DNA of 64,000 nt, taken from positions 372,001 to 436,000 of the forward strand of contig NZ_JAIQZF010000002.1 in assembly GCF_020164585.1 (NCBI RefSeq), in the 5' to 3' direction. The notes below the pieces were generated by a model, which ran no database searches, was not told the origin of the DNA, and saw only the letters and a program-made list of their open reading frames with translations. The position numbers and the translations under genes are program-made. This stretch comes from Psychroflexus curvus (GTDB lineage Bacteria > Bacteroidota > Bacteroidia > Flavobacteriales > Flavobacteriaceae). This document shows, one piece after another, positions 3,488 to 13,580 of the stretch. Within the stretch, counting starts at the first letter, position 1. Each line of letters starts with the position of its first letter.

Positions 3488-3786
3488 GCCGTAAATTTTG
3501 GTAAAAATATAAAACTAAAGCATTATAACGTCACATGCAGATATTAATTTCATGGGCGCTTTCACCCGCTATCCGCTACAACTCCTCAGACCTCACTTTC
3601 AGGTCTGGAGCTTGCAGCGGCTTTTCCTCCGGTCAAGCGCCTCAAGTAAGACCTGGAGCGTTTGGTCTTTCGAGGTTTTCACTCCTATCGGGAGCGCAAC
3701 TAAAACTTAAAATTTAGTTCATAAGTAAGTGCATTCCAAAACAAAATAAAGTTTACATTAGTTATCTGAAATTAACAAAATCAATT
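3488..3786. repeat. GC-rich REP-like composite repeat in intergenic region
   Basis: The spacer between the divergent ftsX and the next gene carries a sharply GC-rich block (about 3550-3705) between AT-rich flanks. It includes a small hairpin CAGACCT...AGGTCTG (around 3588-3608) and segments such as CACCCGCTATCCGCT and CCGGTCAAGCGCC that, from memory, resemble dispersed flavobacterial intergenic repeats. An open frame through it has no protein-like composition and was rejected. The AT-rich right end probably holds the promoter of the next gene. Confidence 0.5.
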
Positions 3787-6966: not shown

Positions 6967-7237
6967 GGTGGATATTTGCTAAAGCGAGGAACTCAAAAAC
7001 CCATTCCAGATTAATTCAACCTATTTTCTACATCACACTTTGTCCTTTTAATATCGTATTTCTTCTGTCTTAATCATCAATTCACAGACACAGAAACTCA
7101 CAGGCACAAACGAATAGTGAAGAAAGCATATGAGAATGCAGAACTTTGCTACCTTCTACCGCCTATTTCCTTTTTTATACTTCTAACTTCATCCTTTTAA
7201 TATTGTACTTTGTGCTGGGAGTTAAACCCATATATAT

Positions 7238-7245
7238 TAGTTTTG
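7238..7245 (+). promoter_or_regulatory. candidate leuS promoter -7 element
   Basis: TAGTTTTG fits the Bacteroidota -7 consensus TAnnTTTG exactly and lies 24 bases before the leuS ATG. No well-spaced -33 TTG was identified, so this is a weak call. Confidence 0.35.
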
Positions 7246-7268
7246 CCATTTGAAAATAGCATTTCATT

Positions 7269-10200
7269 ATGGCATACGATTACAAGGCAATAGAACAAAA
7301 ATGGCAGAAGCACTGGGCCAAAGAACAGACTTTCAAAGCCAGGCAGCCACAGGAATTTACAGGAGAACCCAAACCTCCATTTTATGTGTTGGACATGTTC
7401 CCTTATCCTTCAGGGGCAGGACTTCACGTCGGTCACCCCTTGGGTTACATTGCTAGTGATATCTATGCCCGTTATAAACGGCATTCAGGGTTTAATGTCC
7501 TGCATCCGCAGGGCTACGATTCCTTTGGCTTACCGGCCGAGCAGTATGCGATACAAACAGGTCAGCATCCTGCCAAAACCACTGAAACCAACATCAAAAG
7601 ATACAGAGAACAACTCGACAAAATCGGCTTCTCTTTCGACTGGAGCCGGGAAGTGCGCACCAGCGATCCTAAGTATTATAAATGGACACAATGGATTTTT
7701 ATACAGTTGTTTGAAAGCTGGTATGATGAAGCTGCTCAGAAGTCCAAACCGATTTCAGACTTAGTTCAGGTTTTTGAAACTGAAGGAAATTCTAAAGTAC
7801 AGGCGGTTTGTGATGAAGATACTCCACAGTTTTCAGCTGAAGACTGGAAGGCATTTTCAGAGGATGAAAAAGAACAGCATTTACTTAACTATAGATTAAC
7901 CTACCTCGCAGAAACAGAAGTCAACTGGTGCCCAGCTTTGGGAACTGTATTAGCCAATGACGAAATCGTCAACGGGGTCTCCGAACGTGGAGGATATCCC
8001 GTTGTGAGGAAGAAAATGAAACAGTGGAGCATGCGTATTTCTGCATTTGCGGAACGTTTGCTTTCAGGACTGGACGGTTTGGACTGGAGCGAAAGTCTTA
8101 AAGAAACCCAGAAAAACTGGATCGGCAAATCGGTTGGTGCGCTAGTCAAATTCCCCATCCTATCCTTCCCCAAAGGTGAAGAGAATACCAAATCCGGTTA
8201 CATGACAGGGGGTAATAATTCGTATTTACTCCTGGAAAAAGCTAAAGAAAATCGGAATCATCCAACCGAAGCTGAAAAAGCACTTTGGACTCAACTTCGA
8301 GGTAAAAAGCTGTCAGGCTATAAGTTTAGACAGCAACATCTCATAGGAGATTATATTGCTGATTTTGTTTGTTTATCAAAATCTTTGGTGATAGAAGTTG
8401 ATGGTGGATATCACAATGAAACCAAAGAGGACGATGAAGAACGTACTGAATTTTTAAATAGTAAAGGATTTGAAGTTATTCGTTTCAAAAATGAAGAAGT
8501 CATTGGACAAATAGATGAAGTTCTCGAGCAGATCAAATCAAAACTCGATGACTTACCATCATATAAGAAGAATCAAAATTCTAAAACGAGCGAAGCGAGT
8601 ATCGAGAAAAAACCCCTTTCCTTGGGAGAGGGGCAGGGGGAGAGGACTATTTCAGCGTTCACCACGCGTCCCGACACGATTTTTGGAGTATCCTTTATCA
8701 CCCTGGCTCCGGAGCATGACCTGGTGAGTCAGATCACGACCCCGGAACAAAAAGAAGCTGTGGATACCTATGTAAAAGCCGCTGCTAAGCGAAGCGAACG
8801 CGACCGTATGGCGGATGTGAAAAGCATAACCGGTGTCTTTACCGGTGCTTATGCAGAGCATCCTCTGACCCAAAAACCCATTCCGATTTGGATTGGAGAT
8901 TATGTGCTGGCCAGCTACGGAACCGGCGCCGTGATGGCGGTCCCTTGTGGTGATCAACGCGATCATGATTTTGCAAATCATTTCAACATTCCTATTCCTA
9001 ACGTATTTGAAGGCATCGACATTTCTGAAGAAGCTTACGCCGATAAAACCAATGCTACCAAAATCGCCAACTCCGATTTTCTCGACGGTTTAGGCGTTCT
9101 GGAGGCTATTCCTAAAGCCATTGAAGCTCTGGCCAAAATTGGTGCGGGTGAGAAGAAAATCAACTATAGACTACGCGATGCTGTGTTCTCTAGACAGCGT
9201 TACTGGGGAGAACCATTTCCCGTGTATTACGTCAACGGCCTGCCTAAAATGATAGATGAAAAGTATTTGCCGCTAGAGTTACCAGAAGTCGATGAGTACC
9301 TCCCAACCGAAGACGGAGCTCCACCATTAGGCAGAGCTACCGAATGGGCCTGGGATACAAAAGCCAATCAAGTGGTATCTAATAATAAGATCGACCACAA
9401 CATGGTTTTTCCATTGGAATTAAACACCATGCCCGGCTGGGCGGGAAGTTCCTGGTACCTGTTCCGCTATATGGAAGAGCAGGACAACCGCGACCAGCAT
9501 ATCGCTTCAGAAGAAGCTTTGAACTACTGGAAAAACGTTGACTTATACATTGGAGGAAGCGAACACGCCACCGGTCACTTGTTATATTCCCGCTTCTGGA
9601 CCAAATTCCTGAACGACAGAGGGGTTCTGCCGGTAGACGAACCTTTTAAAAAGCTGATCAACCAGGGGATGATTCTGGGAGAAAGCGCTTTTGTAAAAAG
9701 AATAGGAAATACATATTATTCTGAAGGTGTAGATGTAAACGAAGATTTTCAAAAAATTCACGTTGATGTTTCCGTAGTCAACACCTCGAATCAACTGGAT
9801 ATTGAAGGTTTAAAGAAAATAAAACCCGAATTTAGCGAAGCTAAATTCATCTTAAGCAACAGAGAACTTTACGATGCCAACTCCTCCCCTTTGGGGAGGT
9901 CGGGAGGGGATTTTACGGTTTCCCGCGAAGTCGAAAAAATGTCCAAATCCAAATTCAACGTGGTCAATCCGGACGATGTGTGCGAGGAATATGGCGCCGA
10001 CAGCTTACGCCTTTACGAAATGTTTCTTGGTCCCATAGAACAGGCGAAGCCCTGGAATACCGCCGGGCTGTCGGGTGTGCATAACTTCCTGAAAAAGCTC
10101 TGGAAATTGTATTCCCAAGCCTCCCCCGACCCCTCCCAAGGAGGGGAGTCTGACTTTCAGATTTCAGATGAACCTGGAAGTAAGGAATCGTTGAAAACGC

Positions 10201-10643
10201 TGCACAAAACCATCAAAAAAGTCACCCAGGATATTGAAGACTTTAGTTTCAATACCTCGGTGTCTACCTTTATGATTTGTGTGAATGAGTTGAGTCAGCA
10301 GAAGTGCAATTCAAGGGAAATTCTTGAGCCACTGGCTGTTTTAATTTCGCCCTATGCGCCACATATCGCTGAGGAATTGTGGGAAGGTCTGGGGCATTCA
10401 GAAGGTATTTCGGAAGTGGACTATCCTGTATTTGAAGAAAAACACCTGAAGGAAGATTCCAAAACCTATCCGATTTCTTTCAATGGAAAAATGCGATTTA
10501 CGATGGATTTATCGCTGGATCTCAGCAAAGACGACATCGAAGAAATCGTGATGGCCGATGAGCGTACGCAAAAGCAACTAGACGGCAGAACCCCTAAAAA
10601 GGTGATCATCGTTCCTGGTAAGATTGTGAATATTGTAGGGTGA
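7269..10643 (+). CDS. leuS: leucyl-tRNA synthetase with in-frame DUF559 domain insertion
   Basis: Class I synthetase that charges tRNA-Leu. The 1124 residues include HVGH (residues 53-56, the HIGH motif), the editing-domain signature TTRPDT (465-470), KMSKS (890-894) and a C-terminal anticodon-binding region. E. coli LeuRS has 860 residues. Much of the excess is a foreign block at about 296-460, inserted between the strand WIGKSVGALVKF and the editing motif. It contains a DUF559/very-short-patch-repair-like endonuclease domain (about 316-425; NHPTEAEKALW, FRQQHLIGDYIADFVC, LVIEVDGGYH) with the expected D...ExD metal-binding residues. Two short repeat-encoded inserts lie at 871-881 (SSPLGRSGGD, just before KMSKS) and 951-960 (SPDPSQGGES). 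All three keep frame and spare the catalytic motifs, so the enzyme is probably functional. Confidence 0.93.
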   Translation: MAYDYKAIEQKWQKHWAKEQTFKARQPQEFTGEPKPPFYVLDMFPYPSGAGLHVGHPLGYIASDIYARYKRHSGFNVLHPQGYDSFGLPAEQYAIQTGQHPAKTTETNIKRYREQLDKIGFSFDWSREVRTSDPKYYKWTQWIFIQLFESWYDEAAQKSKPISDLVQVFETEGNSKVQAVCDEDTPQFSAEDWKAFSEDEKEQHLLNYRLTYLAETEVNWCPALGTVLANDEIVNGVSERGGYPVVRKKMKQWSMRISAFAERLLSGLDGLDWSESLKETQKNWIGKSVGALVKFPILSFPKGEENTKSGYMTGGNNSYLLLEKAKENRNHPTEAEKALWTQLRGKKLSGYKFRQQHLIGDYIADFVCLSKSLVIEVDGGYHNETKEDDEERTEFLNSKGFEVIRFKNEEVIGQIDEVLEQIKSKLDDLPSYKKNQNSKTSEASIEKKPLSLGEGQGERTISAFTTRPDTIFGVSFITLAPEHDLVSQITTPEQKEAVDTYVKAAAKRSERDRMADVKSITGVFTGAYAEHPLTQKPIPIWIGDYVLASYGTGAVMAVPCGDQRDHDFANHFNIPIPNVFEGIDISEEAYADKTNATKIANSDFLDGLGVLEAIPKAIEALAKIGAGEKKINYRLRDAVFSRQRYWGEPFPVYYVNGLPKMIDEKYLPLELPEVDEYLPTEDGAPPLGRATEWAWDTKANQVVSNNKIDHNMVFPLELNTMPGWAGSSWYLFRYMEEQDNRDQHIASEEALNYWKNVDLYIGGSEHATGHLLYSRFWTKFLNDRGVLPVDEPFKKLINQGMILGESAFVKRIGNTYYSEGVDVNEDFQKIHVDVSVVNTSNQLDIEGLKKIKPEFSEAKFILSNRELYDANSSPLGRSGGDFTVSREVEKMSKSKFNVVNPDDVCEEYGADSLRLYEMFLGPIEQAKPWNTAGLSGVHNFLKKLWKLYSQASPDPSQGGESDFQISDEPGSKESLKTLHKTIKKVTQDIEDFSFNTSVSTFMICVNELSQQKCNSREILEPLAVLISPYAPHIAEELWEGLGHSEGISEVDYPVFEEKHLKEDSKTYPISFNGKMRFTMDLSLDLSKDDIEEIVMADERTQKQLDGRTPKKVIIVPGKIVNIVG
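8152..8645 (+). mobile_element. DUF559 cassette bordered by GC-rich inverted repeats, inside leuS
   Basis: The insert begins with TCCCCATCCTATCCTTCCCC AAAGG (8152-8176) and ends with CCCCTTTCCTTGGGAGAGG followed by GGCAGGGGGAGAGG (8613-8645). These ends are imperfect inverted copies of one another. The same palindrome occurs alone at 9881-9910 and 10121-10148. Between the ends lies a complete DUF559 domain in the leuS frame with no stop codons. The organisation resembles a small mobile element with terminal repeats whose only product is a nuclease-like domain. No transposase motif is present, so mobility is inferred from structure alone. Confidence 0.6.
9881..9910 (+). repeat. solo GC-rich palindromic repeat within leuS (copy A)
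   Basis: CTCCTCCCCTTTGGGGAGG followed by TCGGGAGGGGA. It encodes SSPLGRSGGD in the loop just before KMSKS. It belongs to the same family as the borders of the DUF559 cassette. Confidence 0.75.
10121..10148 (-). repeat. solo GC-rich palindromic repeat within leuS (copy B, opposite orientation)
   Basis: CTCCCCCGACCCCTCCCAAG followed by GAGGGGAG. It is the reverse orientation of copy A and encodes SPDPSQGGES between the catalytic core and the anticodon-binding helices. Confidence 0.75.
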
Positions 10644-10665
10644 TTTTTTCCGAATTTGTTTATGT

Positions 10666-10707
10666 TCGAGCGGAGTCGAGAACTATATGCATCTCGACTT
10701 CGCTCGA
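10666..10707. terminator. bidirectional hairpin between leuS and polA
   Basis: Inverted repeat TCGAGCGGAGTCGAGA / TCTCGACTTCGCTCGA with one mismatch and a 10-base loop, between the convergent stops of leuS and polA. The unit TCGAGCGnAGTCGAGA resembles, from memory, a common dispersed flavobacterial repeat; a related sequence (CGAGCGAAGCGAG) occurs inside the DUF559 insert near 8588. Confidence 0.65.
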
Positions 10708-10760
10708 TGTTTAAACAGTCAACAAAAACTTTATTTATACCCTCTTAAAAGTTGGTCATA

Positions 10761-13580
10761 CTAATGCGCCTCCAGCCAGTTTTGGCCTGTTCCCATATCC
10801 ACGTCTAGCGGTACATCAAGTTTGAAGGCGTTTTCCATTTTGTCTTTCACCAGAGCCTTGAGTTCTTCGAGTTCATCTTTATGCGCATCGAAGATCAATT
10901 CATCATGCACCTGCAGGAGCATTTTCGATTTGAAGTTCTTTTCCTCCAGGGCTTCATATATATTGATCATCGCTACTTTAATGATATCGGCGGCGCTTCC
11001 CTGGACGGGTGCATTCACGGCGTTACGCTCGGCTGCGCTGCGCACCACATTGTTTCTGGCATTGATGTCTTTCAGATAGCGTCTTCTGCCCATGACCGTT
11101 TTGACATAGCCGTTTTCCTTGGCAAATTCGACCTGCTCGTCGATGTAATCTCTGAGTTTTGGGTAGGTTTTGTAGTAAGTTTCAATCAATTCTTTAGATT
11201 CGGTTCTGTTCAGGTCGGTTTGATTGCTTAAGCCGAAAGCGGAAACCCCGTAGATGATTCCGAAGTTGACAGTCTTTGCATTGCTTCGCTGTGCTCTGGT
11301 GACGTCTTCAATGTCGACTCCAAAGACTTTAGCAGCTGTGGAGGCGTGAATGTCTTCTCCATTTTTAAAGGCATCCATCATGTTTTCCTCCTGACTTAAA
11401 GCGGCGATGATCCTCAATTCGATTTGAGAATAATCGGCAGCGAGTAAGACGTGATTTTCATCTCTGGGCACAAAGGCTTTTCTCACTTCCCGACCGCGTT
11501 CTGTTCGGATAGGAATGTTCTGCAGGTTAGGATTATTCGAACTCAATCGCCCGGTAGCCGCCACCGTTTGCATAAACTCGGTATGCACGCGTTTGGTTCT
11601 GGGATGAATTTGTTTGGGCAAGGCATCCACATAGGTGCTTTTCAGCTTGGAAAGCTGTCTCCACTCCAACACCTCCCTAACGATCTTGTGCTCTTTTTTG
11701 AAATCGGACAATACGTCTTCGGCAGTTGAATATTGGCCGGATTTGGTTTTCTTAGGCTTTTTTGCGATTTCCAGCTTGCCAAAAAGAATTTCTCCAAGCT
11801 GCTTAGGAGAACCGATATTGAATTCTTCTTTAGCCTCTTCGTAAACCGATTTTTCTAAACGCTCAATATCCTCATTGAGCTTTTCAGAGATGTTTTCTAA
11901 AGCCGATTTGTCCAGATTGATGCCTTCAATTTCCATGGCTGCGAGCACACGCAATAATGGAATTTCCATGTCTTTGAACAGGGGTTCATTGGAAGCTTCC
12001 TTCAGTTCTTTTTCGAAAAAAGTCTTCAGTTGAAAAGTGATATCCGCATCTTCTACGGCATACTGAGTCTGGTCTTCCAAATCTACCGTACGCATCGACT
12101 TTTGATTTTTACCTTTGCCAATCAGGTCTTCAATGGGCTGTGGTGAATAGTTGAGGTAGGTCTCCGCCAGGATAGTCATGTTATGACGCATGTCTGGATT
12201 GATGACGTAATGCGCCAGCATGGTATCAAATAGGGGGCCTTTGACTTTTAAGTTGTAGTTGGCGAGGACCTTAATGTCATACTTCAGATTCTGTCCGATT
12301 TTCTCAATCGCTTTAGATTCGAAAAAGGGTCTCAGGACTTCTATAAGCCCCTGGGCTTCGTCCCGAACTTCAGGAAAGACGACGTAGTACCCCTTATGAG
12401 CCTCCCATGAAAACGCAATCCCCACCAATTCGGCATCCAAAGTTTTGAGGCTGGTGGTTTCTGTGTCAAAACATACCGAGGTTTGCTTCATGAGCTTGTC
12501 CATAAACAGTTTCACAGACATCTTTCCTTTGACGTACTGGTAGTGATGGTCTGTGGTGTCCAGGGTCTTATAGCCATCAAAATTGGCCGGATCGACGTTG
12601 GCAGCGTCGGTATCATTCCCGAAAAGCGAAAACTGACCCGCGCCTGCGGTTGGCGACGCTGCTTTTGAAGAGGTTTCTTCAGCAGCAGCTTCGCCTTTGT
12701 TATACATTTTGACAAACTGCTCCGTCAGTCTTCGAAACTCCAGATCTTTAAAAATCTCCAGCACCTTTTCCACCTGAGGTGGTGAGACTTCGTATTTGGC
12801 TTCATCGAAGGTGACCTCACAATCGGTAAAGATGGTGGCGAGCTTTTTGGACAGGAGTCCAAGCTCGGCGTTGGCTTCGATTTTCTCTTTCATTTTGCCT
12901 TTCAGCTGGTCGGTGTTTTCCAGTAAAGCTTCCATGGAGCCAAACTGCTGAAGGAACTTTTTGGCTGTTTTTTCTCCTACACCCGGCAATCCCGGAATAT
13001 TATCGGAAGCATCGCCCATCATTCCCAGAAAGTCGATGACCTGCTCCGGACGTTCGACGCCAAATTTCTTCTGAACTTCGGGAATGCCCCACTTCTCAAC
13101 ACCATTGCCCATTCTGGCCGGGCGTTGCATAAAAATATTTTCGGTCACCAGCTGTGCAAAATCCTTGTCTGGCGTGACCATATGGACTTCGTAACCTTCG
13201 GCTTCGGCCTGCTTGGCCAGGGTGCCTATGATGTCATCGGCTTCCATGCCTGAGATTTCCACAACCGGGATTTCCATGGCGTGAAGGATGTCCTGAATGA
13301 TGGGAATCGATTCTTTGATGACCTTTGGGGTTTCGTCGCGATTGGCTTTGTAGTCTTCGTACATTTCCTTGCGCTCCTTGCTTCCGTCTTTATCGAAACA
13401 CACGGCCAGATGGTCCGGGTTTTCACGTTTGATGACATCAAAAAGGGAATTCATAAATCCCATGATGGCTGAGGTGTCCTGCCCTTTGGAATTGATTCTG
13501 GGATTCTTGATGAGGGCGTAATAGCCACGGAAAATCATTGCGTAAGCGTCTACAAGGAAGAGTCGTTTTTTGGAAGCCAT
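10761..13580 (-). CDS. polA: DNA polymerase I
   Basis: Repair and Okazaki-fragment polymerase of family A, 939 residues. An N-terminal 5'-3' exonuclease (about 1-290; FLVDAYAMIFRGYYA, GDASDNIPGLPGVGEKTA) is followed by a linker rich in Ala and Glu. The 3'-5' exonuclease domain keeps its first metal-binding motif, FDTETTSL (Asp about 372). The polymerase domain has DYSQIELRIIAALS (about 710), the O-helix RSNAKTVNFGIIYGVS, and QVHDELIFD near the C-terminus. All three activities appear intact. It converges with leuS and starts a leftward unit; the 400-base region upstream is shared with a divergent phosphoesterase gene. Confidence 0.97.
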   Translation of the reverse strand: MASKKRLFLVDAYAMIFRGYYALIKNPRINSKGQDTSAIMGFMNSLFDVIKRENPDHLAVCFDKDGSKERKEMYEDYKANRDETPKVIKESIPIIQDILHAMEIPVVEISGMEADDIIGTLAKQAEAEGYEVHMVTPDKDFAQLVTENIFMQRPARMGNGVEKWGIPEVQKKFGVERPEQVIDFLGMMGDASDNIPGLPGVGEKTAKKFLQQFGSMEALLENTDQLKGKMKEKIEANAELGLLSKKLATIFTDCEVTFDEAKYEVSPPQVEKVLEIFKDLEFRRLTEQFVKMYNKGEAAAEETSSKAASPTAGAGQFSLFGNDTDAANVDPANFDGYKTLDTTDHHYQYVKGKMSVKLFMDKLMKQTSVCFDTETTSLKTLDAELVGIAFSWEAHKGYYVVFPEVRDEAQGLIEVLRPFFESKAIEKIGQNLKYDIKVLANYNLKVKGPLFDTMLAHYVINPDMRHNMTILAETYLNYSPQPIEDLIGKGKNQKSMRTVDLEDQTQYAVEDADITFQLKTFFEKELKEASNEPLFKDMEIPLLRVLAAMEIEGINLDKSALENISEKLNEDIERLEKSVYEEAKEEFNIGSPKQLGEILFGKLEIAKKPKKTKSGQYSTAEDVLSDFKKEHKIVREVLEWRQLSKLKSTYVDALPKQIHPRTKRVHTEFMQTVAATGRLSSNNPNLQNIPIRTERGREVRKAFVPRDENHVLLAADYSQIELRIIAALSQEENMMDAFKNGEDIHASTAAKVFGVDIEDVTRAQRSNAKTVNFGIIYGVSAFGLSNQTDLNRTESKELIETYYKTYPKLRDYIDEQVEFAKENGYVKTVMGRRRYLKDINARNNVVRSAAERNAVNAPVQGSAADIIKVAMINIYEALEEKNFKSKMLLQVHDELIFDAHKDELEELKALVKDKMENAFKLDVPLDVDMGTGQNWLEAH

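Follow-up and report, generated by a model that had tools for sequence, protein, structure and literature searches.

Inteins that carry a homing endonuclease sit in frame in essential genes at conserved sites, are patchily distributed and are translated with their host. To our knowledge, Rickettsia palindromic elements and intragenic REPs are short and encode no nuclease or other enzyme gene. Palindromic repeats of this sort lie in frame in housekeeping and DNA-repair genes, and solo palindromes in genes are already in print (PMC3733652). A cyanobacterial DUF559 gene was assigned to the EDxHD homing family in 2022 (PMC9403480), and the homing endonuclease I-Bth0305I possesses long additional DNA-binding regions (PMC3943268). 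Here, we describe a DUF559 nuclease read in frame within leuS, together with its relatives in Bacteroidota. We consider it likely that these form a family of palindrome-bounded, homing-like mobile elements resident in frame without splicing, with nuclease activity and mobility being inferred. Among the titles and openings of abstracts listed from the open-licence literature, with preprints and subscription journals outside the scope, none describes an in-frame element that carries a nuclease in this way.

The window, i.e., the whole 64,000-nucleotide stretch of DNA analysed, carries leuS at 7269..10643 on the plus strand as one open frame of 1124 aa, which the leuS_bact profile matches in three stretches. 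A profile search identified the product as a bacterial leucyl-tRNA synthetase (LeuRS) over its length, interrupted at residues 323-426 by DUF559 (E 8e-37; PF04480 score of the insert 125.8 bits against a cut-off of 20.6). The nuclease domain, at 8235..8546 (+) and with a Vsr / I-Bth0305I-like fold, contains all of the D, E-x-D and H residues, which bears out an earlier sequence-only reading of the locus as an in-frame DUF559 nuclease with its D and E-x-D residues in place. Upon comparing filled and empty LeuRS sites in the genus, we placed the whole element at 8154..8645 (+), starting directly after AAATTC and ending at about 8645. The limits first proposed, 8152-8645 without a stop codon, needed correction at the left end, as the frame from 8152 contains stops, while the frame from 8154 is open. 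The insert takes the place of an 8-residue editing-domain loop (KIQNSKFG in genome G009) between a strand ending KF and ISAFTTRPDT, and relatives with an empty site thus confirm that a short loop before TTRPDT had been replaced. Outside the nuclease domain, it comprises only short linkers and repeats, among them a degenerate left border hairpin, CTTCCCCAAAGGTGAAG (8165..8181, +), and a right border repeat (8613..8645, +) made up of the imperfect hairpin CCCCTTTCCTTGGGAGAGGGG (8613-8633) and a G-rich tail. Two solo palindromic repeats, also proposed beforehand, are real and in frame in leuS at 9881..9909 (+; perfect core 9883-9899) and 10120..10149 (+). A second palindrome family (CGAGCGAAGCGAG...) was observed in the insert's C-terminal tail (8587-8606) and once more just downstream of leuS (10666-10708); in the insert tail, one repeat family is nested inside another.

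The insert resembles inteins in residing in frame in essential genes at conserved sites, in its homing-type nuclease, in its patchy distribution and in being translated with the host, but no splicing domain was found in it, and it stays in a loop and is bounded by palindromic repeats. A Pfam scan of the whole LeuRS and of the insert returned no Hint splicing domain at E <= 1, and the suggested likeness to an intein without splicing is apt for the lifestyle of the element. As with Rickettsia palindromic elements, the palindromes of the family are read in frame in host genes, whereas the present family, found in another phylum, has a complete nuclease enclosed by two inverted repeats. With REP-RAYT units (REPtrons), the family shares an enzyme gene between REP-like repeats and solo repeats elsewhere; it differs in that the enzyme is DUF559 rather than a Y1 transposase (the leuS insert matched DUF559 and gave no Y1_Tnp match at E <= 1) and in that it resides inside host reading frames. 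Terminal inverted repeats, present at the family level while not significant in the window copy, recall a MITE, from which the element is set apart by encoding a nuclease. Nor does it look like a group I/II intron, as Rfam gave no match at E <= 1 in 7000-11000 and the insert keeps an open frame under codon constraint (dN/dS well below 1). We regard it as an in-frame selfish element, close to a kind of its own.

On the predicted structure of the insert (pLDDT 81.6), the nearest characterised fold is that of I-Bth0305I, whose catalytic domain (3r3p) was matched with a Z of 13.7 and an rmsd of 2.2 over 94 residues. Further matches were to 3hrl, a solved endonuclease-like protein (Z 16.7), and to Vsr 1cw0 (Z 10.6), and a profile of 40 inserts matched 3r3p at E 1.9e-07. 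The E, D, E-x-D, H and D residues are conserved, with a residue-by-residue equivalence to I-Bth0305I only partly seen in the profile match. While the catalytic-domain fold is shared, the insert consists of the catalytic domain and linkers only, without the long DNA-binding regions reported for I-Bth0305I. The AlphaFold model of the whole LeuRS was poor (pTM 0.39) and served only for the layout, in which the insert appears as a folded block flanked by low-confidence linkers at 301-315 and 433-457.

Relatives of the insert reside in frame in many unrelated hosts. DUF559 was found in 148 of 397 genomes of the taxonomic family and in 149 of 395 in a search of the class. Among the best 150 family matches listed, 59 lay in open frames of 300 aa or more and 91 in frames of at most 213, with none between, while among the best 150 class matches listed, 80 lay in frames of at least 300 aa; 4 of these belong to the taxonomic family of the window, and we retrieved 60 of the remaining 76. 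We read 58 family stretches (57 with long frames, and L099 without), the free-standing loci L126 and L127, and 60 class stretches. In nearly all of them the host protein directly adjoins the block, on one side only in end fusions (L235 includes a withheld stretch), and the peptides at the borders, such as PPKSPKGG, PSPKERG or LPFGEDLGG, are palindromes read in frame; the borders lie within open frames in nearly all copies, as do the solo repeats of leuS.

By NCBIfam, the hosts were named RecG, MetH, RecJ, IleRS, acetate-CoA ligase, HisD, ValRS, RecB-like helicase, PurQ, CaiB-type CoA transferase, HsdR, IcmF, RluA-type pseudouridine synthase, HutG, HisF, MetRS, IspF, UvrA, PaaZ, CinA, alpha-xylosidase, guanylate kinase, ABC-F protein and adenine deaminase; the RecB-like, PurQ, CaiB-type, RluA-type, alpha-xylosidase and HutG names are approximate since their matches fell below the curated cut-off. 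Some 22 named host families, LeuRS counted, fall within the main nuclease clade described below, and HsdR, HutG and HisF fall outside it. Judged by these assignments, about 20 proteins besides LeuRS, mostly housekeeping enzymes, carry close relatives of the insert. A set of named strains added 80 loci with 81 domains, all from Bacteroidota, including Gillisia mitskevichiae, Gillisia marina, Hyunsoonleella ulvae, Cellulophaga baltica DSM 24729, Flavobacterium cucumis and Prevotella; because this set was retrieved by a profile of in-frame copies, its in-frame share is no estimate. The closest named insert to that of the window, from Gillisia, is 68% identical, and plasmid and phage collections held only relatives of less than 60% identity (40 and 5 records, respectively). 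One genome, G420, holds in-frame copies in metH, leuS and ileS together. The metH gene of G240 (L069) contains two DUF559 elements, at oriented positions 3732 and 4962. In G427, two genes that, judging by their motifs, are presumably phosphatases (L230 and L232) carry near-identical inserts at seemingly the same site, and their host parts diverge downstream of the right palindrome.

The DUF559 domain elsewhere is tied to the palindrome, as the sequence-only reading had anticipated. We scored a border as positive if a hairpin core with a C/T arm occurred within 150 bases and used windows of the same genes as controls. Of the 117 in-frame copies, 6 of which fall outside the main clade, 99 had a core on both sides, as compared to 65 of 1613 control windows; the left side was positive in 103, the right side in 110 and neither in 3. 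The C/T-arm test was chosen after viewing the hairpins of a first score, which had AT-rich stems mixed in and placed 56 of 117 copies above the 95th percentile of controls on both sides. Repeated unchanged on 70 named copies outside the first set, it gave cores on both sides in 56 (controls 22/937) and on neither in 2. Of the 25 free-standing copies, 11 had a left core, 18 a right core and 8 had both. Left and right borders matched better as inverted than as direct copies in 84 of 116 cases, with 5 ties, and the best inverted matches reached 41/42, 35/35 and 32/32 bases. Inverted repeat ends, claimed at the outset for the window copy itself, are strong in the family and weak in that copy: its hairpins are imperfect, it is one of the 3 in-frame copies without a perfect core on either side, and 160 of 1000 shuffles paired its borders equally well, i.e., no better than chance. 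The border repeats mark the limits of the unit. The two copies in G240 metH have similar DNA from AGCCCCCC..CCCCCAAAGGGGGAG through CCCCTTTGGGGGCGGGGGGGGCT and no evident similarity beyond, and, being alike from border to border only, they define a unit of repeat, nuclease and inverted repeat. Co-variation of borders and nucleases between hosts was weak (rho 0.10; 1 of 500 permutations as high), and as the two L069 copies shared one row in this test, we give the signal no weight.

The in-frame copies form one specialised clade, although the short domain left many forks of the DUF559 trees unresolved. The tree of 151 domains placed 111 in-frame copies, spanning 23 family codes, in one group (SH-aLRT 95) with none of the 25 free-standing copies among them; host labels on this tree, one of which lumps rarer hosts, changed at least 33 times against a minimum possible of 14. 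In the tree enlarged to 225 domains by the named set, the clade (SH-aLRT 97) comprised 181 of the 187 in-frame copies and only 4 free-standing ones. These four (L294, L297, L299 and L341) are all from Bacteroidales, three of them titled Prevotella or Prevotellaceae, and have possibly returned to independent life. A more careful tree, of 84 domains from the taxonomic family, split the LeuRS inserts into at least 2 groups, of which one stands closer to the inserts of HisD and MetH (98/88, 99/94), so that repeated entry into this LeuRS site is probable. A separate DUF559 clade (9/9: L072, L083, L086, L092, L100, L101, L102, L104 and L110) is fused N-terminally to an apparent uroporphyrinogen-III synthase, often with a palindromic peptide between; we take this host to be HemD, a name that rests on its motifs. 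Two free-standing DUF559 genes of another clade (L035 and L036) lie inside arrays of dispersed repeats, with recurring peptides in translation.

The nuclease domain is under strong purifying selection with intact active-site residues, as far as can be judged from codons and alignments: E, D, E-x-D and a later D are conserved in 117 of 117 in-frame domains and H in 116, and dN/dS was 0.04-0.28 in 14 of 16 pairs, with dS saturated in the other 2. An ATG within 21 codons upstream of the domain was present in 51 of 111 clade members and in 22 of 25 free-standing copies, in each class with only 2 cases of a ribosome-site-like 4-mer. The 4-mer thus does not discriminate between them, which leaves room for some copies being translated separately.

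Within the genus, the element comes and goes. We examined 27 genomes and obtained LeuRS from 24, of which 5 had a filled site, 18 a short native loop and one (G010) the left-type palindrome only, FPILSFPKREG; the empty sites expected in close relatives are hence present, and the insert is not common to all. IleRS carries its own DUF559 insert, at a different site, in 4 of 21 genomes, a count that leaves out 3 further loci not meeting the motif. In G020, sister (100/100) of an insert-bearing species, IleRS shows a scar-like EPQGGL. We infer that the residues in G010 and G020 are scars of loss rather than fresh solo insertions. On host trees built without the insert, LeuRS required at least 4 presence changes across 24 species, all forced by well supported branches, and IleRS required 3. 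Sister pairs in the LeuRS tree include G002 (filled) with G013 (empty; 98/96) and G021 (filled) with G024 (empty; 99/97). A target-site duplication, for which a check at the insert ends had been proposed, was not seen at the LeuRS and IleRS sites compared within the genus, where the native loop is replaced instead. The empty LeuRS sites of G009, G013, G007 and G016 (L129, L131, L134 and L139) are AAATTC repeats (AAATTCAAAATTCAAAATTC), as though a second, AT-rich repeat also settled in this loop.

The solo repeats at the two other leuS sites are likewise shared in a patchy manner, with the core at the first site (9881-9909) in 4 of 20 LeuRS genes of the genus (G000, G013, G025 and G001) and at the second (10120-10149) in 4 of 18 (G000, G002, G013 and G007); G016 was not found, and the second site was unreadable in G024 and G014. 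The notion that these repeats are private to the window's genome was rejected in this full genus comparison. The position just before REVEKMSKSK stands out as a repeat hotspot in LeuRS, with palindromes in the four genomes of the first site (L359, L365, L350 and the window) and a repeat-like peptide, SFGEDLGEAS, in G021 (L363).

Solo palindromes that lack a nuclease appear and disappear in leuS of the genus, so the repeats may be moved in some other way. The hairpin repeats could themselves be what is mobile, with Y1 (RAYT-type) transposases acting on them in trans and DUF559 serving as cargo or as a repair helper. In keeping with this, the solo palindromes are in frame and patchy at two other leuS sites in the genus, and a Y1_Tnp match occurred in 24 of 25 genomes with in-frame copies, although these matches were not separated into RAYTs and other IS200-type enzymes and some were weak. 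Intragenic REPs have also been described in other bacteria (PMC3733652). Against transposition in trans stand G420, which was assembled as one contig and carries in-frame copies in three genes yet has no Y1_Tnp match at E <= 1e-5, and a nuclease under strong purifying selection whose active site is invariant. We consider this explanation unlikely, while it remains the most serious competitor to a homing-like element.

We compared third-position differences of insert and host in 123 same-site pairs, which are not independent and were not corrected for multiple tests. The insert was far less diverged than its host in IleRS of G010/G012 (0.04 vs 0.38; p 1.5e-15), LeuRS of G000/G002 (0.08 vs 0.26; p 1.4e-5) and RecJ of G576/G435 (0.14 vs 0.40; p 5.9e-8), and it was less diverged in 8 of 8 of the closest pairs (host difference up to 0.31). 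Over the 97 pairs with a host difference below 0.5, it was less diverged in only 52 (significantly lower in 4, higher in 0), so that most copies look vertically inherited since entry, and a general deficit of divergence in inserts was rejected. Around the site, LeuRS and IleRS of the genus showed no consistent long co-conversion tract, and co-conversion was dropped as a proof of homing. In MetH of G637/G440, the hosts are 87% identical and the inserts only 48%, a pattern that would be as expected if the site had been emptied and then refilled, or overwritten. Fairly read, these sequence comparisons suggest that copies enter a site, are inherited vertically for long periods, get lost, and have occasionally been exchanged at the same site in recent time.

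Another possibility is that DUF559 is a domesticated domain useful to the host enzyme (e.g., as a sensor or moonlighting nuclease) and inherited with it, for which both the low dN/dS and the divergence of insert in step with host in many deeper pairs could be taken to speak. Yet members of the same clade occupy unrelated enzymes, are patchy between sister species and are bounded by repeats, and hosts that are close relatives may contain inserts that are related only distantly, leaving us with little credence in domestication. We doubt even more strongly that the insert is an inert old insertion, tolerated in the loop and no longer able to move or cut: the degenerate borders of the window copy would fit, whereas active-site residues invariant in 117 of 117 copies and a dN/dS well below 1 do not. 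An assembly or gene-calling artefact, for which we found no evidence, is hardly conceivable, given that the same structure occurs in many genomes, some in one contig (G025, G240 and G420), and in named strains.

We suggest that the unit, as a homing-like element, enters housekeeping proteins in frame, in loops or at the ends, and would stay there as a translated domain. It would be read as part of the host protein, as supported by codon constraint and the absence of a splicing domain or intron match, and there is no sign of removal at the DNA, RNA or protein level. By inference, the nuclease would cut an insert-less allele or the target loop, with repair from the filled copy as in homing, and rarer jumps to new genes would carry both hairpin repeats as ends. 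Loss, the partly observed step, would leave a repeat or scar as in G010 LeuRS and G020 IleRS, and recombination at the borders could cause it, with solo palindromes like the observed ones left behind. An essential gene would protect the element that resides in it because only in-frame loss is tolerated. The original proposal of a mobile repeat/nuclease unit resident in frame is well supported and reaches far beyond leuS, with present mobility and DUF559 as the driver being inferred, and neither of the two outcomes that were set beforehand to refute it occurred, since LeuRS relatives are not all filled and DUF559 elsewhere is tied to the palindrome.

These findings suggest an origin for PSPKERG-type border peptides and a role for DUF559. 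We lean, if only slightly, towards a broader hypothesis that Bacteroidota harbour a large class of autonomous selfish palindrome-bounded nucleases that have given up excision and home into loops of essential proteins, where they remain for good as translated domains ("splice-less inteins"), moving between such unrelated enzymes as tRNA synthetases, methionine synthase and DNA helicases, with the host gene providing promoter, start codon and a shield against loss. If true, nuclease elements would have, next to inteins and introns, a third route to residence in essential genes, one that needs no splicing. It would also offer many natural experiments on where essential enzymes accept large folded domains, and a probable parasite would be counted in the annotated length and domain map of many tRNA synthetases, helicases and metabolic enzymes of Bacteroidota.
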